A stretch of DNA of 64,000 nucleotides from a virus: positions 124,001 through 188,000 of the IMG/VR virus record IMGVR_UViG_3300043540_000321. The stretch is one strand, 5' to 3'. Below the pieces are notes generated by a model, which was not told where the DNA came from, made no database searches, and was given only the letters and a program-made list of their open reading frames with translations. This document shows positions 1 to 38,869 of the stretch, piece after piece. Every line of letters begins with the position of its first letter. Within the stretch, counting starts at the first letter, position 1. A program made the position numbers and the translations under genes.

Positions 1-3000
1 CAGTTTCACTGCACGTCTAAGGACGGCGTGTTCCACATTGAACGCAATCGGCATATCAATGGGATGCTTTTAGTTAATAGCTCGACTGGTCGGCACCCCA
101 CCGAGCCAGTTGACCCCGAAAACCTGTCGCTCGTAAACAGCTACGGTACGGTCATCTACGCTCTGTTGTATGGAGCGCCTGGTTATGTTAACAAAGGCAA
201 AGGTTGGGACAGCTTCGTCAACAAAGTCCTGGTCAAAGGAGACGAATATCCTTTGACATCTGAGGATGAAGTTGGACCCGCAGATGGCGATCGTAAGTTT
301 CACGAACGCTATGTAACGGTAACTCGACCTCAGCCCGTCGACGTTCCGTTTGCGCTCATTCGCTTCACGGACGGCTGGTTTCTCAGTACTCAGTCTGTCT
401 CTATGAAGACTGGTTATGCCACCGAGTCAGAAAACAGCGTACGCCTACCGCAAAATAGCTCTATTGACAAGGCTGCTCTCTGGGCATTCAACCTAGTTCG
501 GATGCCAAGCGGAGCTCTTATTGATGGACGGCGGAGCTGTATTCAACTTCGACACACTCAACAACCAGCCAACTTTGCCAAGGCTATGATGTTGAATCTG
601 GCCGGCACCGACGATATTCTGCGAGCTGAAGGTTATGCCCGCTCCATCGTTAAGGTTCCAGACGGAAAAGATACCTGGGAACACCTGGGTGAATATCTGA
701 TCGTTGGCTTGTCTTCGAAGTTAGCCAAGCTGATTAAACGGACAGCATCCGATGCTGCCGTTGTCGCAAAGTTAGAAGATGGGCAGTCTCGTGGGTTCAA
801 GCGGTTCGGACAGACTAATGAGTCAACTAACAATTGGCTCGTTGAATCTGTTGTCTCTGCACACGCAATCTGGCCGGCTGGTATGGCCTGCTATTGGGGT
901 GATGAGCCTCAACTGTTGGTTGACCATACGGAGTCCATTCAGTTGCCTTTCAAGGGTGATGTAGATGAGACTACAGTGAGTGTGCCTTATACCGAGTACA
1001 TGGGTGAAGTCTATCTGGAAGATGGATGGTTCAAAGTTACGATGACCACCCCAATTCCAATTGACAAAGGTGGATTGGCTGGAGAAGTCCAGGTGTGCTG
1101 CAACGGAATCGAATATCCGTTTGCTATCACATCCAAGACTCCGGACGCTCAGCTCGTAGGTGTCGAATGGCAAGAACGCCGTGGCTACGGTGACCTCAAG
1201 ACTTTGTTCGTCAAAGTAAGGACTATCACCGTGGAATCCGAAATCAAAGCTCGGAATGGTGTGAAGGCTATGCTGACCCGCTACGACCGTCGGTGCTTGT
1301 CCCTCAATAATGAGGATATCGCTGCTCGTGCGATTTTCTTCAAGGACACAAACAAGTGGCTAGACCTGGCGACTCAAATCTGCGATATCGCTGCTTGCAC
1401 AGCTATCCAGAATAAAGATCCGCAGGGCCTAGCTCTTATTCACTCTGCCAACGCCGCCGCTGGTGTATCTCATAGCGACTATCTGGAATGGTCTCCCGTG
1501 CTCGCTATGATTGGCGTCTATCAACCTCTACTCAACTGGTTCGAGTCCAAGTTTGGTCGCTCGATCTGGTTCAAGTGGGAAGATTCCACTTGTGACTGGA
1601 CGACAGTGCTGCGTCTCATGTACACGAAGCACGACAGTCCGAATGAAGCCGAGCGAGCTGAACCAGTTGCTGGTTGGAGCTATGTCGACCATGACAAGCT
1701 TGACTTTCTACCCAGCACAGCATCTGATGTGCTGGCTATTGCAGACGGTGACTTCGAGGATGAGCATACGAATGTTGTAGTCATCTACCGCGTCGGCGGT
1801 ATTGAATACTTCGTTCAACGTGCTTATTCCTTCGCTGGAACCTCGGCTACCGGACCCGTTTGGCAACCAGTTAAGGCTGAGTTGTCTAGTGTTCGTGCAG
1901 GCGTGACCCAGTCTCCTTTAATGTCTGGAGTTATCCGGGCCGTTGAAGGTAAAGATTTGGACTATGCCACACGACTGGCTGCGGATGGTCTGCAACACGT
2001 TCAACGTGCCTCTACTGTTACTCGGATGGCTCGAGGTCTGGGTGGCGTGCAGAATGTTGTACTCGGAACGCCTGACGCAATGTCCGTTCTGTGTACAGAA
2101 GAATTGCAAGAGCTGGTGACCAACCCGCTACTTCAAGGTCAGCTCGTTAGAAAGTTGGCTGAGCAGTTCCCAGACACATTCTTCATCGTGCCTGGTGCTT
2201 ACGGGACATTCAGCCTGCATCTACCTACCGTGGTGGAGCAGGACGGTTCCGATAACCTGTGTTCAAGTGTGACAATGGCGGGCCTGACCGCTCAGCTACT
2301 GTCACTAGCTATCCTGGGCGCAGGTGCTGACGACAAGGTTTTCTGTGCGATCGCTCGTTCTCTGAACGGTGCGATTCGGAAACTTGCCGAAAGTGAAACA
2401 CTGGCGAAAGCGGCCGCCTACGGTCGCGTAGGCGTCAGCGCAAAATGTAAAGCGCTGCCGGGTATTGGTGTGGGTGAAGTTTGGATTAGGTTTAGCATCC
2501 GACACAACTCTGTTTATCAAACCATGAGAAGAGTTATGGGTAAGGACCTTGACGGCCGTAAGGTCCTTATGAGCAGAGCTCCGATGACAAACCCATCTGT
2601 CCTAAAGGTCAGAGTTATTAAACCCATTCATCCGATGGGAGACTACGTTGAAGCCGACTCCATTTATCTGTCCCCTCTAGGGCAGATGTTAAATGGTGGG
2701 GACTTCGATGGAGACCCTATCTATCTGACGGATGCTAATGACTCAAACCTTCCTGTAACAACGTTGAAGACTATCATCGACAACGTTATTGCTAGAACAG
2801 GCAGTGACCAACTCAACCCAGGTGCATCCTACTGGGGCGACCACTTCGAAATTCTTTCTGCTGATGCTGTAGCTGAGAAGCGCACTATTGGCAAGAAGAA
2901 CTTGTCCATGCTCAATGACGATGGCCGGAAGGCTCTGCCTACCATGTTAAAAGGCTCTTCAGTAATGTTCGAGTCCGCCATCAATTGGGCTCACAGGATA

Positions 3001-3594
3001 TTCCTGACTTCAGACCTATATCTATCTCTGATATGGGCGCTGCAGGAAGACCTGATGGTCAAGTACCCGGGGTGGAAACCCAATTCATTCACTCAAAACC
3101 GCTCTCTAGTTCTCTTGTTGGCTGAGCTATACGAGATCCCATTAGGGGGACTAGACTGGAATGCTCATGACGCTATCATGGGCGGGTTGGTCCCGATTAT
3201 CCGCGACCTTAAAACTCAGTTCGACGGCGAACAGGTTAATAAGTTCGTGGCTGACTTAGAGGCGGCTGGAATCAAACGTGGTGGAAGAGATATCCATCGC
3301 GCAGCAGTCCAAGCGGCTGAATGTCGCAAGCTGAGCAGTGTCAAAGCGAAAGTACCACTGCCTGCTGTTATTCACGGAACCACTCCAGAAGGTTTTCTCT
3401 GTGCCGTGTCTGAGATGTCTTCGCTCATTAGCAAAGGCGACTTTACTATGACGAGCAAAGTTCACGCAACGATGGCATGTGAGATTGCTGATTGGCTTAC
3501 CAAGCATGACGCAGATGGTAAACTGACCGCGAAAAGCACTGTTCTGATGCAGATCAGACAGTATCTTGACCTGATGGTTGAGGGTGTCAAGTAA
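1..3594 (+). CDS. Single-chain DFDGD RNA polymerase-like protein (5' partial)
   Basis: The frame is open from the first base of the window, so the true start lies upstream; 1197 residues are visible. Near codon 859 the protein reads RAPMTNPS within a stretch like the beta-prime segment that precedes the active site. At codons 901-905 it has NGG-DFDGD-P, the metal-binding signature of the double-psi beta-barrel of RNA polymerase beta-prime and of the QDE-1/YonO/crAss-phage single-chain polymerases. Known: three Asp of DxDGD hold the catalytic Mg. Inference: this is the element's own RNA polymerase, DNA- or RNA-templated. I cannot place the second barrel by eye. A helicase follows after a 46-nt gap with a GTGGGGTGG hairpin (3599-3620). 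The motif is certain; the exact subfamily is not. Confidence 0.8.
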   Translation, partial: QFHCTSKDGVFHIERNRHINGMLLVNSSTGRHPTEPVDPENLSLVNSYGTVIYALLYGAPGYVNKGKGWDSFVNKVLVKGDEYPLTSEDEVGPADGDRKFHERYVTVTRPQPVDVPFALIRFTDGWFLSTQSVSMKTGYATESENSVRLPQNSSIDKAALWAFNLVRMPSGALIDGRRSCIQLRHTQQPANFAKAMMLNLAGTDDILRAEGYARSIVKVPDGKDTWEHLGEYLIVGLSSKLAKLIKRTASDAAVVAKLEDGQSRGFKRFGQTNESTNNWLVESVVSAHAIWPAGMACYWGDEPQLLVDHTESIQLPFKGDVDETTVSVPYTEYMGEVYLEDGWFKVTMTTPIPIDKGGLAGEVQVCCNGIEYPFAITSKTPDAQLVGVEWQERRGYGDLKTLFVKVRTITVESEIKARNGVKAMLTRYDRRCLSLNNEDIAARAIFFKDTNKWLDLATQICDIAACTAIQNKDPQGLALIHSANAAAGVSHSDYLEWSPVLAMIGVYQPLLNWFESKFGRSIWFKWEDSTCDWTTVLRLMYTKHDSPNEAERAEPVAGWSYVDHDKLDFLPSTASDVLAIADGDFEDEHTNVVVIYRVGGIEYFVQRAYSFAGTSATGPVWQPVKAELSSVRAGVTQSPLMSGVIRAVEGKDLDYATRLAADGLQHVQRASTVTRMARGLGGVQNVVLGTPDAMSVLCTEELQELVTNPLLQGQLVRKLAEQFPDTFFIVPGAYGTFSLHLPTVVEQDGSDNLCSSVTMAGLTAQLLSLAILGAGADDKVFCAIARSLNGAIRKLAESETLAKAAAYGRVGVSAKCKALPGIGVGEVWIRFSIRHNSVYQTMRRVMGKDLDGRKVLMSRAPMTNPSVLKVRVIKPIHPMGDYVEADSIYLSPLGQMLNGGDFDGDPIYLTDANDSNLPVTTLKTIIDNVIARTGSDQLNPGASYWGDHFEILSADAVAEKRTIGKKNLSMLNDDGRKALPTMLKGSSVMFESAINWAHRIFLTSDLYLSLIWALQEDLMVKYPGWKPNSFTQNRSLVLLLAELYEIPLGGLDWNAHDAIMGGLVPIIRDLKTQFDGEQVNKFVADLEAAGIKRGGRDIHRAAVQAAECRKLSSVKAKVPLPAVIHGTTPEGFLCAVSEMSSLISKGDFTMTSKVHATMACEIADWLTKHDADGKLTAKSTVLMQIRQYLDLMVEGVK

Positions 3595-3598
3595 ACGA

Positions 3599-3620
3599 GT
3601 GGGGTGGCCATCCACCCCAC
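3599..3620 (+). other. Hairpin between polymerase-like gene and helicase
   Basis: Perfect 9-bp inverted repeat, GTGGGGTGG with a 4-nt loop, just after the stop of the polymerase-like gene. No U-run follows, so it may stabilise or process a shared transcript rather than end it. Confidence 0.6.
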
Positions 3621-3640
3621 TTAATTCAGAGGACTGAATT

Positions 3641-5782
3641 ATGAACGCTCAAGAGACTGAAGTAACAACAACAACAGATGTGGTGACAACCCGCACATCT
3701 GCGTGGTTTGAAAGTCTTCCCAAAGAAATTCGAGAATGGGAAGACTTTAACTTGCTTAGCCAAGACCAATTTCTCGCCATTCAAACGATCGTGTCTGGCG
3801 ATTACAAGGTCGTTAATTTATTAGGCAGAGCTGGTAGCGGTAAGACCTTCACGGTTAAACTTGCTCGCCGGCTGCTTGAAGCCTTAGGGTTCGAAGTTAG
3901 AGTATGCGGCACCACGGGTGTCGCATCTCAGAATGCAGGTGGTGAGAGTACTCTAAACTCTCTGTTCCGCCTGGGTGTGGGTAATTACCTACCCAAAGGT
4001 CTGACAGACTTCGTAGGTGGTGGTCGCAAGCAGATTAACACCGCCATTTCGAAAGCCACTCAAAACTTCTCGACCCGTGTTAAGGGTGACCTCGTCCTCT
4101 TTATTGATGAGGTGTCGATGGCCAGCAGTGAGCTGCTGGTCCTCGTCTACCAAGTCCTGTCCGCGGTTTGTTTGAACCGGAACTTCCGCATCGTGTTAGT
4201 AGGTGACCTTCGTCAGCTATTACCAGTAGATAAGGAAGATGACCGTCTACCCTGGAAAGACAAGCGCCATCTATTCTTTGAGCCTGCCGAATTCATTCCG
4301 GCAACCAAAGATGACAAGAAAAATACAGGCAAGGAGCCAAAGGTCTATACCTATGGTTCGATGGTGACCGACGGTCCTTTCCAGATGAATGGAAAGGAAT
4401 CAATCCTTCCTCAGGGAATGGATTGGACAGCCTTAGCACTCTCACTCACCACCAACCATCGGCAAAAGACCGATGCGGGCAAGGCATGGTTCATTGAAGC
4501 CTTAAACGCGCTGGGTGACGGCGCGAACTTTAATGACGCACGAGTCGCTCCACTCCTGCAGCGAGTCTGGTTCGCAACAGAAGATGGTGACTATGTGAAC
4601 TACATCAGTAAGGAACCACTGCCAGAAATCGATGGGCTGCATATCTACACCAAGAACCGCGAGGTTGGTGAAGAAAATGCTAGAGCTTTGGCGAACGCCA
4701 AAGGCAAAATCGTGAAGTATAGCAGCTCTATTGAACTCCTCCAGCCTGGGTACACGATGGACGAATGTCTAAGTGACCTCTATCCTCTGGAAGCCGATAT
4801 GGAGTTGGCAGTCGGTTTGAAGTTCATGGTCAGATTGAACCTGACTCCAGAACTTCTGAATGGGACGATCGGAGAAATCATCGAACTTCGGAGAAATCCG
4901 GATGTGGTGGTTATTAGACTGCCAGACGGCACCGTGCACGAGGTCGGACCCACCGATATTCCGATGCCCTCTAATGCTGATGGGCCTTTGGCTGCTGTTC
5001 ACATGATTCCAGGGCATCTCAGCCATGCGATGACTCCTTGGAAAGCTCAGGGGCTGACGATTAGAGAGCCTCTCATCTACCACTTGAACACCTATTGGAA
5101 GCAGCACGGGCTGCTATACGTGGTGTGTTCCAGGGTGACCGAACCAGACTTGCTGTACATTCTGGTTGACGATATGAAGATGCTCAACAAAGCCGTCCAT
5201 TGCGATCCGAAGGTCGGAGCGTACATTCGGAAGGCTGAGTTGAACACAGCTCGCCTCCTGAGTGGACAAGCCTTGATTCCAGAGATGGACTACGAGGCGA
5301 CCTTCACAGACGAAGGGACGGAGCAAGTAGCGCATGTCCTTACCTTTGATAAGGCCTCTCGTTACTGCTTCTTCTTTAAGCATGGGGAGATGGTCGGCAT
5401 CAACCGAGATGCAGGCGGTCAATGGGTGCGCGTTAAGTTGGATGACGAGGTATTGAAGGCGGTTGAAGATAAGGTGGACGAGCTTGGGCTGATTCGCTCA
5501 GTCGAAGCGAAGCCTCTTTTCTGGACTATCGACAATAACGTCGTCACGTTCGGTCCTTACAGCCTCTGGCTGCAGGACTACGAAGAAGTGACTAAGAATA
5601 TGCCCGTGACCAAGCCCACCGTCGTTAAGACTACGGAAAGTGTGGTCATCTACCGCATCGGAGACGTACATGGAATGATGGTGACAGACCAACAGAAGCT
5701 TAGCAATAAGCTCTATGAAGACTCCAAGCGTGTGGAGTGGTTTGCCAACATTAGTTTCATCTGGTTCCACCCAGAAAGCTAG
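3641..5782 (+). CDS. SF1 helicase of the Pif1/RecD/Dda type
   Basis: 713 residues with an AGAGGA ribosome site before the ATG. Helicase motifs appear in order: Walker A GRAGSGKT (62-69), motif Ia around CGTTGVAS, Walker B FIDEVSM (D156, E157), motif III GDLRQLLPV (188-196), TNHRQ with the motif IV Arg, motif V HAMTPWKAQGL (from 462) and motif VI VVCSRV (R498). This is the core of Pif1-like and phage Dda-like DNA helicases, which unwind 5' to 3'. The last 200 residues match nothing I recognise. It follows the RNA polymerase-like gene directly, so the two are probably co-transcribed and may act together in replication or transcription. Confidence 0.9.
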   Translation: MNAQETEVTTTTDVVTTRTSAWFESLPKEIREWEDFNLLSQDQFLAIQTIVSGDYKVVNLLGRAGSGKTFTVKLARRLLEALGFEVRVCGTTGVASQNAGGESTLNSLFRLGVGNYLPKGLTDFVGGGRKQINTAISKATQNFSTRVKGDLVLFIDEVSMASSELLVLVYQVLSAVCLNRNFRIVLVGDLRQLLPVDKEDDRLPWKDKRHLFFEPAEFIPATKDDKKNTGKEPKVYTYGSMVTDGPFQMNGKESILPQGMDWTALALSLTTNHRQKTDAGKAWFIEALNALGDGANFNDARVAPLLQRVWFATEDGDYVNYISKEPLPEIDGLHIYTKNREVGEENARALANAKGKIVKYSSSIELLQPGYTMDECLSDLYPLEADMELAVGLKFMVRLNLTPELLNGTIGEIIELRRNPDVVVIRLPDGTVHEVGPTDIPMPSNADGPLAAVHMIPGHLSHAMTPWKAQGLTIREPLIYHLNTYWKQHGLLYVVCSRVTEPDLLYILVDDMKMLNKAVHCDPKVGAYIRKAELNTARLLSGQALIPEMDYEATFTDEGTEQVAHVLTFDKASRYCFFFKHGEMVGINRDAGGQWVRVKLDDEVLKAVEDKVDELGLIRSVEAKPLFWTIDNNVVTFGPYSLWLQDYEEVTKNMPVTKPTVVKTTESVVIYRIGDVHGMMVTDQQKLSNKLYEDSKRVEWFANISFIWFHPES

Positions 5783-18024: not shown

Positions 18025-18076
18025 ATTCACTAATCAACCGGAGGTGCTCGAGGAGTGCCAACCTATAACATAAAGA

Positions 18077-18147
18077 TGCCCCCAATAGGAATTGAACCTA
18101 TGTAGACCCTTTTAAGGAGGGTTGCATAACCACTATGCTATGGGAGC
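18077..18147 (-). tRNA. tRNA-like gene, anticodon UUA (possible ochre suppressor)
   Basis: A complete 71-nt cloverleaf on the minus strand: acceptor GCTCCCA/TGGGGGC, D arm GCAT-AGTGGTT-ATGC, anticodon arm ACCCT-CCTTAAA-AGGGT, 4-nt variable loop and T arm ATAGG-TTCAATT-CCTAT. No CCA is encoded. The central loop triplet is TTA (plus 18113-18115), which would read UAA. Position 33 is C rather than the near-universal U, so the reading or its function is uncertain. It is isolated among + strand genes. Confidence 0.8.
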
Positions 18148-18187
18148 AAGTTAATAGAGTGTTCATCCATTTTAACGAGAGGACATT

Positions 18188-33102: not shown

Positions 33103-33129
33103 TTGCAACCCTACACCCAACGACGACCT

Positions 33130-36100
33130 ATGTACGACCTCCGTTACGTCGATGTTATAAACCCGATCTACCTGACAAAGGAATTCTTAGAGCCCTACGC
33201 AGCAAAGGAACCTCCCTTCGCAAATGCCGTCGCCCTCATCACAGCGATGAGAACTTACCTTCGCTTCGTCGACGAGTTCGGGCGGCGGGAGAAGTGGTGG
33301 GAGATGTGTCTCCGAGTTACGGAGTACAGCCTGTCTCTATACCGTGGACCCGCCTCGTTTGAAGAACTGAAGAAGGAGGCTGAGGAGTTCTTCGATCACA
33401 TCTTCAACCTGAAGATATTTCCTGCCGGCAGAACGATGTGGATTGGCGGAACGAAAGTTACCGACACCGACGGAACGAGCAACATGAATTGCAGCTTCAG
33501 AGTGATAGACTCTCTCGATGCCTATTCGGAGATGCTCTACCTATCTCTCTGTGGGTCTGGAACCGGGTTTTCTGTAGAACGACGATACGTTGATAAATTA
33601 CCCAAGTTGATTGTTCCTGAGGTAATCCACCAACCGTACAACCCTAAACCAAAGGACAAGCGGTACGAGAACACGATCGTTAAGGTTGGGACGAAGGAGT
33701 TCTCTCTTCGAACTCCTTATCTAATTAATAAATTTGACAGTTGCCTGGAGCGTCATGCCGACTCTGTCTCTGCCTTCGAGGCATCCATCACCGTCGGGGA
33801 TAGCAAAGTCGGCTGGGCTGTAGCCGTCAAGGCTCTTTTAAGACTGCTGACTTGTTATTCCATCAAGCAGATCATCATTAACTACGACAGCATTCGAAGG
33901 GCTGGCGAGAGGTTGATGACGTTCGGCGGGCGAGCGTCTGGGCCCGACCCTCTCCGTTGGTCGATCGGGCGCGTGATGGAAATTATTAAAGCGTGTGACG
34001 GAAGGTTGAGTTCGAGGGATGCGATGGATATCTCCAACATCCTCGGGTTCGCTGTCGTATCGGGTGGCGTCCGGCGCACCGCTCAGATTACCCTGGGAGA
34101 CATAGACGATGTGGACTTCATCACGGCCAAGTATGGGCTGTGGGATGAGAAAAACCACCCCGAGCTGAAGATATTCCAGGAAACGAGATCGCTCAGCAAC
34201 AACTCCGTCCATGTGTGGAAGAAGCCACCGCTGAAACAACTTAAGGATATTCTTGCTCGCGCTCGGTACAACGGCGAGCCCGGATTCTACATCGCAGAAA
34301 ACGCGCTGAAGCGTCATCCTAGATACAAGGGTACTAACCCATGTGGAGAGATCTTGCTGGACTCTTCTCAAACTTGTAACTTGTGTGAGGTAGTCGTTTC
34401 AGCCTTTGTCAAGAACGGTCGCTTCCAGTACAAAGAGTTCGAGTACGCTCTGCGTTTAGCCACTCGCCACGGCAGCCGAATTACTAATATTCAGATGTGG
34501 CATCCCGATTGGGATGTCATCCAAAAACGCGATCGCCTGCTCGGTGTCTCTCTAACCGGACAGGTTGACGCTTGGCAGATGTTGGGCTGGGCGTATCAGA
34601 TTAATGAAAGTGGATCCTACACCCACGGCACAGACGAGCGCGTCCAGGATGTGCTTCACCTGGCGAAGCAAGCTGTTCGAACGGAGGCTGATAGCTATCA
34701 TGCCGAGATGGGCATCCCTCAGTCGTTGTTAACAACATGCGTCAAACCCAGTGGTTGTAGACCCTGGAATGCTTTAACGACAACAGACCAAGGGGTATTA
34801 ACTTTGGAGGAGTTGTTGGAGAAGCACCCAGACGATAAGGTTTGGGGTGATATGGAGGGGTACAGAGCAGTAAATGAGGGAGTGCTGAGCAAAATTACCA
34901 AGTCATATAATAACGGAGTCGAAACTGTACACGACATACAGCTCTCTCTAGGGTTTAGACTTCAGTCAACCGGAAATCACCGCTGGTTTGTGAAAGAACG
35001 AGTAGTGCGTTCGGCAAACTCTAAGAGACGATTGGTACGATTGGTAGATGTGCATCAGTGGGTCGAAACTAAAGACCTTCAACCAGGAGATGTAATAGAA
35101 GTTCGGCCGAACACCTACAACAAAGTTGAAGAGGCCCCTCTACAGAGAGTAAATAAGCTTGCTTTTTCTATGCGGAACGATGCAACGCCTATCCTCCAAC
35201 CAGACCGAATGAACCCAGAACTCGGCTGGTTGTTAGGGTACCTCTGGGGAAATGGAGCCATGTCTCAGGGTGGATATAGAATCCGGTTTGTGGACGAGCT
35301 GCAAACCAAGTTAGAAAAGGTCGAACAGATATTGAGAAGTCAATTTGGTATTGACAGCTCTGTTCGAAAGTTAAATGACCGCAAGGCATTTTCTTTAGAG
35401 GTGGGTAGCAAACATCTATGGCACTGGCTGATAAAGAACGAGGTATGGAAGTACTATGCTGATGGGTTGGACATTATTCCAAAAATAGTGCGCTCTTCAT
35501 CGAGGGAAACTATTATTGCGTTCATTGCTGGTCTAGTTGACTCGGATGGATGGGTAGGTTACTCGAGAAAAGAACAACAGGTAAAAACTGTAGTCTTGTC
35601 GAGCGCGTACGACCTATTTGCAGAACATCTTCAGCATGTAGCTCTATCTGTGGGTTTGTGTATCGGAAGGTCGCTAAACTCAAAGGGAGATAACCTACAG
35701 GAACAAAAACATATCTGGTTGATGGGGTTCAACCAATATTCCGATTCAGAAAGTTTTGAAATTCTTTCAAAACACTCTCTGAAGATTCAATCCATCTACC
35801 ATTTACCTGGTAGATGGGTTCATGAAAACCCTGCCCGGAATACTAAACCTCTAGGAGAGGTTATATCGATACAAGAAAGTGGCGAAATGCCTACCTTCGA
35901 TATCGAAGTCGAAAACACTCACTGGTACTATGCCGGAGCGTTTAAGAGTCATAACACCGTTAGCCTGGTCGCTGGCTGTAGCTCGGGTGCTCATATGGGA
36001 TATGCCCCCTACTACATCCGTCGGATGCAGATTGATCGTCATGACCCTCTCGCTCATGCACTTCTGTCCAAGGGTCTGAACCCCCGTCCAAAGAACAACC

Positions 36101-36549
36101 AGGGCGACGACCTCTACGGAGAAGGCGTAACAACCTGGGTGTTCGACTTCCCCATGACTTCCAACACTCCTATCCGAGCGATCGACGAGCCCGCGGTTTC
36201 GCAACTCGAACGGTATAAAGAGTTGATGCGACTGTACGTGGAACATAACGTCAGCTTCACCTGTTCAGTCGACGACCACGAATGGGATACAGTTGCGGAG
36301 TGGGTTTACAAGAACTGGGATGACATTGTGGGGATAGCCTTCTTCCCTAAATTCGATCCTACGATCGGCACGCCAAACCCAGACCTCGCCTATATCCCCT
36401 GTAGTAAAGAGGCCTACCAGGAACTGGCGGCGACCATGCCTCAGTTTACCGAATCAGAACTGAACGACCTGGTCGCTCAGTTCGAGACGGAATATGAGGA
36501 GTACAGCCTGGATTCAGAGTGCTCCACCGGAGCTTGCCCAGTTCGTTAA
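33130..36549 (+). CDS. Class II (B12-dependent) ribonucleotide reductase with intein
   Basis: The start is ATG 33130; a TTG at 33103 is possible. Without the intein the protein is 739 residues, the length I recall for the Lactobacillus monomeric RTPR. Visible motifs: MNCSF, LCGSGTGFSVE, GGVRRTAQITLGD, TNPCGEILL, CNLCEV and the C-terminal redox pair CSTGACPVR. The enzyme reduces ribonucleotides through an adenosylcobalamin radical. The intein sits between KPSG and TVSL, a conserved active-site stretch. The adenosyltransferase gene upstream would supply the cofactor. A 16-bp terminator follows. Confidence 0.92.
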   Translation: MYDLRYVDVINPIYLTKEFLEPYAAKEPPFANAVALITAMRTYLRFVDEFGRREKWWEMCLRVTEYSLSLYRGPASFEELKKEAEEFFDHIFNLKIFPAGRTMWIGGTKVTDTDGTSNMNCSFRVIDSLDAYSEMLYLSLCGSGTGFSVERRYVDKLPKLIVPEVIHQPYNPKPKDKRYENTIVKVGTKEFSLRTPYLINKFDSCLERHADSVSAFEASITVGDSKVGWAVAVKALLRLLTCYSIKQIIINYDSIRRAGERLMTFGGRASGPDPLRWSIGRVMEIIKACDGRLSSRDAMDISNILGFAVVSGGVRRTAQITLGDIDDVDFITAKYGLWDEKNHPELKIFQETRSLSNNSVHVWKKPPLKQLKDILARARYNGEPGFYIAENALKRHPRYKGTNPCGEILLDSSQTCNLCEVVVSAFVKNGRFQYKEFEYALRLATRHGSRITNIQMWHPDWDVIQKRDRLLGVSLTGQVDAWQMLGWAYQINESGSYTHGTDERVQDVLHLAKQAVRTEADSYHAEMGIPQSLLTTCVKPSGCRPWNALTTTDQGVLTLEELLEKHPDDKVWGDMEGYRAVNEGVLSKITKSYNNGVETVHDIQLSLGFRLQSTGNHRWFVKERVVRSANSKRRLVRLVDVHQWVETKDLQPGDVIEVRPNTYNKVEEAPLQRVNKLAFSMRNDATPILQPDRMNPELGWLLGYLWGNGAMSQGGYRIRFVDELQTKLEKVEQILRSQFGIDSSVRKLNDRKAFSLEVGSKHLWHWLIKNEVWKYYADGLDIIPKIVRSSSRETIIAFIAGLVDSDGWVGYSRKEQQVKTVVLSSAYDLFAEHLQHVALSVGLCIGRSLNSKGDNLQEQKHIWLMGFNQYSDSESFEILSKHSLKIQSIYHLPGRWVHENPARNTKPLGEVISIQESGEMPTFDIEVENTHWYYAGAFKSHNTVSLVAGCSSGAHMGYAPYYIRRMQIDRHDPLAHALLSKGLNPRPKNNQGDDLYGEGVTTWVFDFPMTSNTPIRAIDEPAVSQLERYKELMRLYVEHNVSFTCSVDDHEWDTVAEWVYKNWDDIVGIAFFPKFDPTIGTPNPDLAYIPCSKEAYQELAATMPQFTESELNDLVAQFETEYEEYSLDSECSTGACPVR
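34756..35955 (+). mobile_element. Intein with LAGLIDADG endonuclease, 400 aa, in the reductase
   Basis: It begins with Cys (after KPSG) and ends His-Asn, followed by Thr of the host protein: standard splice residues. Splicing blocks near the ends are visible (STGNHRWFV; MPTFDIEVENTHWYYAGAFK). Two dodecapeptide motifs occur: LLGYLWGNGA, where the usual acidic residue is Asn, and IAGLVDSDGW with intact Asp. The first motif may therefore be impaired and homing activity reduced. Boundaries follow from the PSG/T host motif. Confidence 0.9.
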
Positions 36550-36855: not shown

Positions 36856-37254
36856 TCAGCCATGATGCGGGTCATTGATGTAGTCAAGGATTTTCTGAGT
36901 ACTGATCTTGCCAGTTGTATCGAAGCCATACGAATGCGTCCACAAGCTAGGCAATTTAAGCAACTCTGGAAACTCCTGTCTGAGAATGCGAGCTGACCTT
37001 CCTTTGAATGCTTTGACGACTTGTGCAATGGAATGAGTTGGATCATATTCCACCAACAAATGCACGTGGTCTGATGCAATCTCTAACGCCTTGATAAACC
37101 ATCCCTGCTCCTTCGCTACGCCATAGAAAATCTCGGCACAGCGCTGCTTTAGGTCTTCGCGTCGGTAAAAGATTTTCCTGCGCCTGCATGGAATCCATAT
37201 CAAGTGGACTGTTGCCAGCCCAACCGCGTGATTGTAATGTTTGTATTCCGTCAT
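36856..37254 (-). CDS. tnpA: IS200/IS605 TnpA, HUH Y1 transposase
   Basis: 132 residues, typical for the family. The HUH metal motif is visible (SDHVHLLVEY) and the nucleophilic Tyr lies in the C-terminal helix (KILDYINDP). The segment SLWTHSYGFDTTG matches the usual W-x-x-S-Y-x-x-T-x-G. It cuts and joins single-stranded ends by a 5'-phosphotyrosine bond. It looks intact and is divergent from tnpB, with 64 nt between. Confidence 0.92.
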   Translation of the reverse strand: MTEYKHYNHAVGLATVHLIWIPCRRRKIFYRREDLKQRCAEIFYGVAKEQGWFIKALEIASDHVHLLVEYDPTHSIAQVVKAFKGRSARILRQEFPELLKLPSLWTHSYGFDTTGKISTQKILDYINDPHHG

Positions 37255-37318
37255 TGTAGATAGCTAGCACTCATCTACAATCTATAGTACAATAAAACTA
37301 TCTGTTAAATTCCTCGGT

Positions 37319-38869
37319 ATGCCCCGTAGCAGCACTCCCACCTTCATAACCGATGTCCCGCTCATTGTGACTAGTACTGATGAGCGAGAATTAACAGCGC
37401 GGTTTAATGCCGGGTTAAGGCTGCTCAACAATTGCCTGGGTGAAGCGCAAACTCGAATGAGGCTTGTCCGAAAAAGCGAGCTATTTCAGCAAGCTTTGAA
37501 ATTGCCCAAGACAATCAAAAACGACAAGGGCAAAGATGTAGCAAACCCATTGCGGAGAGACGCTTTCAAAGCAGCGCGGGAGGCGCATCGCTATTCAGAG
37601 TATGATCTTCATGCGTATGCAGGCAGGGTTGCCAAAGACGCAGTATGGATAGCCCAAAAGCTCGATGCGAATACTATCCAAAAGATTGCAACACGGGTAT
37701 TCAAAGCAACTGAAAGGGTGCTTTTGGGCAGAGCTAAGAAGATTCGCTTCAAGGGCTTCAATCGCTTCCGCTCGGTAGAAGGCAAGTCAAACAAGACTGG
37801 GATTCGCTGGAAAGATAATCAGCTTGTTTGGGGAGATCTGATTCTTCAGCCACTGATTGGTGAAAATGATCCAGTTCTACTGCATGGGCTAAACAGCCCA
37901 GTGAAGTATGTCCGGCTAATCAAGAGAGAGTTGAATGGCAAGACGCGCTATTTCGCTCAACTAGTCAACGAAGGACTGCCATTTCAGAAACCCAAAAACA
38001 CAGTCGGGGATGATCTAATTGGACTGGATCTCAATGTCAGCGCTGTGGCTGTAGTTGGGGATACTCGGTCTGAGTTGCTGCCTTTTGCCAATAAAGTCCC
38101 AACCTACGACAAAGAGATTGCAGCGCTTCAACGGCAGATGCAGCGCTCTCAGAGGACTAGCAATCCAGAGAATTACGAGCCAAACTTTGAGGCTCGCAAA
38201 GGTCGAAAGACCGTAACCAAGCTTGGTAAACCCAAGAAGGGCAAACGCAAGTGGCGTAAGTCAAAGCGCTACCTGCGAATCGCCCAAAAGAAACGGGAAT
38301 TGCAGCGGCGTAAAGCCGCCTATGCAAAGTCCGAGAACAGGAAACTGGTCAATGATACGCTGCGTATCGGCAAGACCATCAAAACTGAGAACGTCTCAGT
38401 CAAAGGCTGGCAAAAGCGCTACGGTAAAGCTATCGGTGCAAAGTCGCCTGGATTCTTCATGAGTGAACTTGTTCGCAAGGCTGAAAGGGCTGGTGGACAA
38501 GTCATTAAGTTTTCGACCCAGAGAACCGCACTATCTCAAACTCATCTCAGTGGTGAGCGCGTCAAGAAGTCTCTCTCAGAGCGCATCCACAAGGATGTGA
38601 CAGGTTTCGAGATGCACCGAGATTTGTTCAGTGCGTTTTTGGCTCGATACGTTGTTGAGGATCAGTTGCTATTGCAGGCTGCTCAATTTGAGTATCCAGG
38701 GCTGGAACCAGCCTTGATGGAGGCATGGCAACGCTATCTCCAATCCGCAAATCAAGTAGGCTCGTCCGAACGTAGGCAGGCTCAACCTCCCTCAGAGCGG
38801 ATCTCCATTAATTCCGAAAAAGCCAACCAGATAGGAGACTCCTGTAAGTCAGTCCGACAAGTTGGTTAA
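37319..38869 (+). CDS. tnpB: TnpB-like RNA-guided nuclease lacking the zinc finger
   Basis: 516 residues. RuvC residues are visible: GLDLNVSAVAVV (Asp), IKTENVSVKGW (Glu) and HRDLFSAFLARY (Asp). In most TnpB proteins a Cys4 zinc finger lies between the last two; here that part reads QTHLSGERVKKSLSERIHKD, without Cys pairs. A C-terminal extension of about 80 polar residues follows. TnpB uses the element's right-end RNA to cut DNA. The hairpin at 38884 may be the 3' end of that RNA. Confidence 0.85.
   Translation: MPRSSTPTFITDVPLIVTSTDERELTARFNAGLRLLNNCLGEAQTRMRLVRKSELFQQALKLPKTIKNDKGKDVANPLRRDAFKAAREAHRYSEYDLHAYAGRVAKDAVWIAQKLDANTIQKIATRVFKATERVLLGRAKKIRFKGFNRFRSVEGKSNKTGIRWKDNQLVWGDLILQPLIGENDPVLLHGLNSPVKYVRLIKRELNGKTRYFAQLVNEGLPFQKPKNTVGDDLIGLDLNVSAVAVVGDTRSELLPFANKVPTYDKEIAALQRQMQRSQRTSNPENYEPNFEARKGRKTVTKLGKPKKGKRKWRKSKRYLRIAQKKRELQRRKAAYAKSENRKLVNDTLRIGKTIKTENVSVKGWQKRYGKAIGAKSPGFFMSELVRKAERAGGQVIKFSTQRTALSQTHLSGERVKKSLSERIHKDVTGFEMHRDLFSAFLARYVVEDQLLLQAAQFEYPGLEPALMEAWQRYLQSANQVGSSERRQAQPPSERISINSEKANQIGDSCKSVRQVG

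Follow-up and report, generated by a model that had tools for sequence, protein, structure and literature searches.

The question raised by the first 3,594 bases of a 64,000-nucleotide stretch of viral DNA is whether the long reading frame that fills them encodes a single-chain RNA polymerase. The stretch, called the window hereafter, comprises positions 124,001 to 188,000 of the IMG/VR virus record IMGVR_UViG_3300043540_000321 (G000; 195,211 bp). The window edge truncates the gene, which begins 735 bases upstream (G000:123266) with a strong ribosome-binding site, AAGGAGGT, ahead of its ATG, and whose full product, designated P0001, has 1,442 amino acids (aa). On the basis of sequence analysis, we put at about 0.8 the probability that this protein is a DNA-dependent RNA polymerase with two barrels in a single chain, encoded by a cyanophage from the kinship of Microcystis phage Ma-LMM01.

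Putative catalytic motifs of P0001

Window positions 2575-2715 translate to RAPMTNPSVLKVRVIKPIHPMGDYVEADSIYLSPLGQMLNGGDFDGD. An earlier note on this DNA had placed NGG-DFDGD at codons 901-905 and RAPMTNPS 42 codons before it; both positions were reproduced, with the first aspartate at codon 901 and the arginine of RAPM at codon 859. The same note had proposed a single-chain DFDGD RNA polymerase of more than 1,190 residues. That proposal still appears to be the best reading, given the order of the motifs and their conservation in a homolog, and the frame is indeed open throughout, but the length was incomplete until the 5' end was recovered. In P0001, 38 residues lie between RAPM and DFDGD; the arginine-to-aspartate spacing is 37-44 in P0001-like proteins and 36 in beta-prime (L099, counted by hand), so that the two are alike.

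By analogy with two-barrel enzymes, D1146, D1148 and D1150 of GGDFDGD would be the ligands of the catalytic magnesium, in a double-psi barrel of the beta-prime type, with R1104 of RAPM probably at the place of the beta-prime NRAP. About 480 residues upstream, K661 and K667 of K-x-R-x-G-x-K may represent the basic residues of the beta-type barrel, an assignment made through KMAGRHGNK of beta, which we take to be the analogous motif. The magnesium ions bound there and the basic side chains in the second barrel would together catalyse nucleotide addition. The fold, the synthesis of RNA and the use of a DNA template are what we infer from these motifs.

The five motif residues alone are weak evidence, because D.DGD appeared in 75 of 2,000 shuffles of P0001 (about 4%). 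The joint motif, in which K-x-R-G-K is followed by R-x-P-M and then by G-x-D-x-D at polymerase-like spacing, appeared in none of 2,000. A loosened pattern, D-[hydrophobic or G/S]-DGD, was matched by only two open reading frames (ORFs) of at least 120 aa across the 195-kb record. This scarcity, together with retention of the motif set in a homolog of 24% identity (described below), takes the P0001 motif beyond chance. Comparison of motif-region profiles gave P 2e-4 with viral beta-prime and the same value with other phage proteins that have DFDGD (reversed controls, 0.012). The sole Pfam signal at the catalytic region was the eukaryotic RNA-dependent RNA polymerase (RdRP) family PF05183, with E 0.13 for the whole protein and 0.022 for a C-terminal piece; at 11.4 and 13.9 bits, respectively, neither reached the gathering cut-off of 23.8 bits. 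Such weak profile evidence is normal for the two-barrel superfamily, since YonO, gp64 and gp96 of Thermus phage P23-45 and phi14:2 gp66, each of them a proven polymerase or one with a solved structure, also had no relevant Pfam match, and since, according to the authors of the P23-45 study, similarity among many of the families is not significant outside a small DxDxD region (PMC10770324).

Table 1. Coordinates of P0001, its motifs and other features of the source record
Feature	Position	Strand	Remark
P0001 ORF	G000:123266-127594 (= L002:9266-13594)	+	ATG start shortly after AAGGAGGT
C-terminal 1,197 codons of P0001	window 1..3594	+	frame +1 open from base 1 to the stop at 3594
Putative beta-type (lysine) barrel signature K661-A-R663-N-G-V-K667-AMLTRY	window 1246..1284	+	K, R, K invariant in alignment with P0002 and gp064-like proteins
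R1104-A-P-M-TNPS, predicted counterpart of beta-prime NRAPTLH	window 2575..2598	+	R-x-P-M invariant in alignment A2
NGG-D1146-F-D1148-G-D1150, putative metal-binding loop of beta-prime-type barrel	window 2692..2715	+	G-D-x-D-G-D invariant
LYEIPLGG, C-terminal conserved block	window 3127..3150	+	conserved in P0002, gp064 and the Microcoleus phage protein
Giant DxDGD protein, 3,395 aa, MLGDYDGD	G000:102011-112198	-	outside the window, beside head genes
Perfect hairpin GTGGGGTGG-CCAT-CCACCCCAC between polymerase and helicase genes	window 3599..3620	+	no T-run
Hairpin AATTCAG/CTGAATT with AGGA in its loop	window 3623-3640		directly before the helicase ATG
Dda/PIF1-like helicase, next gene	window 3641..5782	+	phrog_325, E 1e-35; PF13604
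tRNA, anticodon UUA	window 18075-18148	-	Rfam tRNA, 61 bits
Ribonucleotide reductase gene	window 33103-36549		large in-frame insert
IS200/IS605-type TnpA/TnpB pair	window 36856-38869

Relatives of P0001 and a second, giant protein

Direct searches with P0001 of IMG/VR, genome contigs, phages, plasmids, PDB sequences and PHROGs were empty or returned irrelevant matches; a PDB profile match to a coronavirus spike construct (E 0.003) lay away from the motif and was set aside as a chance effect of helix composition. A homolog was reached only via the terminase, in IMG/VR record 3300042340_000379 (G001), whose terminase is related to that of G000. This protein, P0002, has 1,829 aa and matches P0001 with E 2e-25 at 24% identity overall. 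The alignment of the two retains K-x-R-x-G-x-K-A-M, K-x-x-A-L-P-x-I-x-x-G-E-V-W, R-A-P-M-T-x-x-x-V-L-K-V, N-x-G-D-F-D-G-D and L-Y-E-x-x-L-G-G.

Two long ORFs of Ma-LMM01, and no others, contain D-x-DGD: gp064 (1,673 aa; phrog_30979) and gp080 (3,562 aa; phrog_31006), both listed in PHROGs as of unknown function. gp064 is homologous (E 1e-16) to WOL31509, a 3,410-aa protein of Microcoleus phage My-WqHQDG, and in both the blocks K-L-R-G-L-G-x-K, R-T-P, G-D-x-D-G-D and Y-E-x-x-G-L-x-G-Y-x-P follow the order seen in P0001; the lysine block of the Microcoleus phage protein reads KLRGLGIKAIIGYD. MAFFT, run without guidance, aligned the K-R-K, R-x-P-M and G-D-x-D-G-D blocks of P0001, P0002 and the gp064-like proteins, and the C-terminal LYEIPLGG has its counterparts in LYEVALGG (P0002), VYESMGLGG (gp064) and IYEGLGLSG (Microcoleus phage). 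The gp064 gene is under purifying selection, with a ratio of nonsynonymous to synonymous substitution rates (dN/dS) of about 0.17-0.22, and each of the 16 IMG/VR copies has kept the two motifs intact. Extra modules were seen in this group: a NADAR domain (PF08719, E 3e-20) is inserted just after GDTDGD in WOL31509, at residues 2963-3094 (L145, OR578708.1), and gp064 has a metallopeptidase-like HELVH motif near residue 240 (L137), N-terminal to its polymerase-like part. WOL31509 also gave a weak M78 peptidase match, and no such motif was seen in P0001 or P0002.

A GGDFDGD pattern scan of IMG/VR returned more than 120 loci, many of them polymerase-like and none significantly related to P0001. 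Among cyanobacterial genomes (a draw of 386, and two draws by order that share members with it and are largely the same as each other), a single C-terminal fragment was the only homolog found. It is a stand-alone 315-aa ORF on the minus strand of a 7.02-Mb contig of genome G340 (L234:9519-10466), located near integrase-like and tail-fibre-like ORFs, and its homology (E 1e-16) is to the stretch of P0001 that follows DxDGD; it is a candidate prophage relic or split gene.

G000 also encodes the giant DxDGD protein of Table 1. It has homologs in G001 (3,360 aa; L135:6772-16854), in Ma-LMM01 (gp080) and in My-WqHQDG (WOL31285), with phmmer E values of about 1e-70 to 1e-4 among the comparisons; a hidden Markov model of the family added matches in another two IMG/VR records, and still did so when DxDGD was masked. 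In all four viruses the giant adjoins gp081/gp083-like and head genes, and each virus has two single-chain DxDGD proteins, this giant with the virion genes and one other. The giants showed no detectable relation to the P0001 family beyond the motif. The 3,395-aa protein has no Pfam domain, and an M23 peptidase sits on a separate 2,823-aa protein. About 1,290-1,560 residues upstream of DxDGD, the giants of G000, G001, Ma-LMM01 (gp080) and L062 carry QRLKN-x-x-G-x-[RK]-P, which, speculatively, might be their counterpart of the lysine motif.

Alternative explanations and known systems

Several observations weigh against a polymerase assignment for P0001. With DxDGD masked, profile comparison found no significant similarity of P0001 to any other polymerase. 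AlphaFold models of the 1,197-aa part and of a 348-aa catalytic piece, built on 7-row alignments, had predicted local distance difference test (pLDDT) scores of 33.7 and 34.7, and are unusable because the alignment is too shallow; Foldseek on the 1,197-aa low-pLDDT model gave no match at E <= 0.001. A crude k-mer scan upstream of the phage genes revealed no convincing promoter-like motif, and the Ma-LMM01 transcriptome has been interpreted with host sigma70 promoters only (PMC5780444). As for the link to Ma-LMM01, whole-profile hhalign of P0001/P0002 against the gp064 pair gave P 0.008; this match sits in the catalytic segment, homology was not significant once that region was removed, and HMMER profiles of either pair did not find the other, so that homology of P0001 and gp064, suggested by motifs and collinearity, is only probable.

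In P23-45, gp64 is the non-virion RNA polymerase, and the N-terminal domain of gp96 is the virion RNA polymerase, fused to the tape measure (PMC10770324). This phage resembles the cyanophages in having two single-chain DxDGD proteins, one beside virion genes, and in the beta-prime-type segment R-x-P ... G-x-D-x-DGD, but its proteins share no sequence similarity with the cyanophage ones beyond the motif; the latter are 1.4-3.6 thousand residues long, whereas gp64 has 616, and the cyanophage giant is not fused to a tape measure, being separate from the M23-bearing protein. A two-polymerase arrangement is suggested because, as in P23-45, the second DxDGD protein stands beside head genes in all four viruses. 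The crAss-like phi14:2 gp66 is likewise a giant single-chain polymerase encoded with virion genes, although it belongs to another virus group and has no detectable similarity to the cyanophage proteins. YonO of SPbeta (phrog_8308; PMC5467207) is, like P0001, a single-chain protein that has DxDGD and otherwise little resemblance to cellular RNA polymerases, but it has 839 aa against 1,442. An origin of P0001 from the YonO family was considered and rejected: P0001 and P0002 had no match in PHROGs, phrog_8308 included, at up to E 1 and 10, while YonO itself scored E 0, and the YonO-family genes found in 3 of the 386 drawn genomes of the cyanobacterial phylum belong to a different family. Ma-LMM01 is closest, being of the same virus lineage, with P0001's ordered motifs in gp064 and a homolog of the G000 giant in gp080, but P0001-gp064 similarity across the whole proteins is not significant.

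Since P0001 lies outside the structural block and gp064 beside the early block, P0001 would most likely be a non-virion enzyme that is produced during infection and transcribes some of the phage genes, and the giant a candidate virion polymerase delivered with the DNA; this division of roles is likewise one that we infer. We lean slightly towards the broader proposal that Ma-LMM01-type cyanophages run their own two-polymerase transcription, with a virion giant of about 3,400-3,560 aa and an independent, cell-made P0001/P0002/gp064/WOL31509 family of 1,442-3,410 aa, in which modules of the NADAR and metallopeptidase-like kind occur fused.

The alternative that survives best, though we regard it as unlikely, is that the roles are swapped or shared: P0001 and gp064 may be the enzymes that the virion carries, or the giant may be the sole polymerase in use, with P0001 a diverged, inactive paralogue. 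Some gp064-like proteins, such as WOL31509, are giant too, and the HELVH motif of gp064 recalls the metallopeptidase of the P23-45 tape-measure polymerase (PMC10770324). However, P0001 and gp064 are outside the structural block, with gp064 adjoining the early block gp054-gp063 (PMC5780444), the catalytic residues are intact, gp064 is under purifying selection, and synteny with head genes across the four viruses is a property of the giant, not of P0001.

Less probable still is a two-barrel P0001 that does not transcribe phage genes and is instead primer-dependent or RNA-templated, like an RdRP, or acts in replication with the adjacent helicase. The RdRP signature is SGGDLDGD, and the GGD ahead of the P0001 aspartates resembles it; eukaryotic RdRPs such as QDE-1 also have GGDxDGD in a single chain, the RdRP family is the best profile signal (in the catalytic segment), and the gene after P0001 is a helicase. 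Yet the match, at E 0.02-0.13, is under the Pfam cut-off, a double-stranded DNA phage has no obvious need for an RdRP, G000 already encodes a family A DNA polymerase and a DnaG-type primase, and the helicase is not beside the polymerase gene in the relatives checked. A chance motif in an unrelated large phage protein, compatible with the frequency of D.DGD alone in shuffles, with similarity to known polymerases in the motif region only and with AlphaFold models lacking a barrel, is very improbable given the absence of the joint motif from all shuffles, its invariance in the 24%-identical homolog and its recurrence in Ma-LMM01 and Microcoleus phages.

Genomic context and implications

The earlier note had assigned the locus to a cyanobacterial mobile element in which the polymerase is paired with a helicase. 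The cyanobacterial part was borne out: a cyanobacterial host is indicated because relatives of the window TnpB, which is 60% identical to a Scytonema plasmid copy, were cyanobacterial at all 63 genome loci found, and because terminase, capsid and sheath match cyanophages. The element itself is not a generic mobile or plasmid-like one but, from its gene content, a contractile-tailed cyanophage related to Ma-LMM01. Its terminase is 34% identical to that of Ma-LMM01 and 53% to that of G001 (against Ma-LMM01-like cyanophages, TerL E 1e-89, major capsid protein E 2e-56, sheath E 2e-59), and it also encodes a baseplate wedge, the DNA polymerase (PolA) and primase mentioned above, a clamp loader, RecA, UDG and ribonucleotide reductase. 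More than 20 of its genes have a match in Ma-LMM01 and/or My-WqHQDG, and the homologous terminase, major capsid, sheath, baseplate and replication genes place it among the Ma-LMM01-like cyanophages (Fukuivirus relatives).

The pairing with the helicase did not hold. The Ma-LMM01 homolog of the helicase is gp160 (142,680-143,828), about 94 kb from gp064, and no helicase was seen adjoining the P0002 gene in G001; the notion of a conserved polymerase partner was rejected on these grounds, and the helicase is a replication-module gene. The hairpin that separates it from P0001 is a possible terminator or processing site, and a second hairpin carries the helicase ribosome-binding AGGA in its loop. 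In Ma-LMM01, a 42-bp tandem repeat array lies between gp064 and the gp063-gp054 block (L137:43271-43551) and is possibly a regulatory region. Elsewhere in the window, the tRNA with anticodon UUA would read the stop codon UAA, and its position 33 is C where U is expected; the main genes gave no sign of recoding. The insert in the ribonucleotide reductase gene matches an endonuclease family and is probably an intein.

Single-chain two-barrel polymerases and virion/non-virion pairs are already known. What is new, as far as checked and leaving aside the viral survey in Supplementary Data 4 of PMC10770324, is that these two families, neither of them annotated, exist and occur in Ma-LMM01-like cyanophages. 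The MaMV-DH01 genome paper reported the lack of an RNA polymerase and concluded that this phage depends on its host for transcription (PMC9927357), and the Ma-LMM01 transcriptome, with three timed expression classes and near-identical sigma70-like promoters, raised the question of how timing is controlled (PMC5780444). If P0001/gp064 and giant/gp080 are polymerases, the view that Ma-LMM01-like phages have no RNA polymerase would be wrong, and a cultured bloom phage would then allow the question of expression timing to be tested directly. The two-barrel polymerases, which serve to infer what RNA polymerase was like before its subunits split, would also gain two large single-chain families that carry no annotation.

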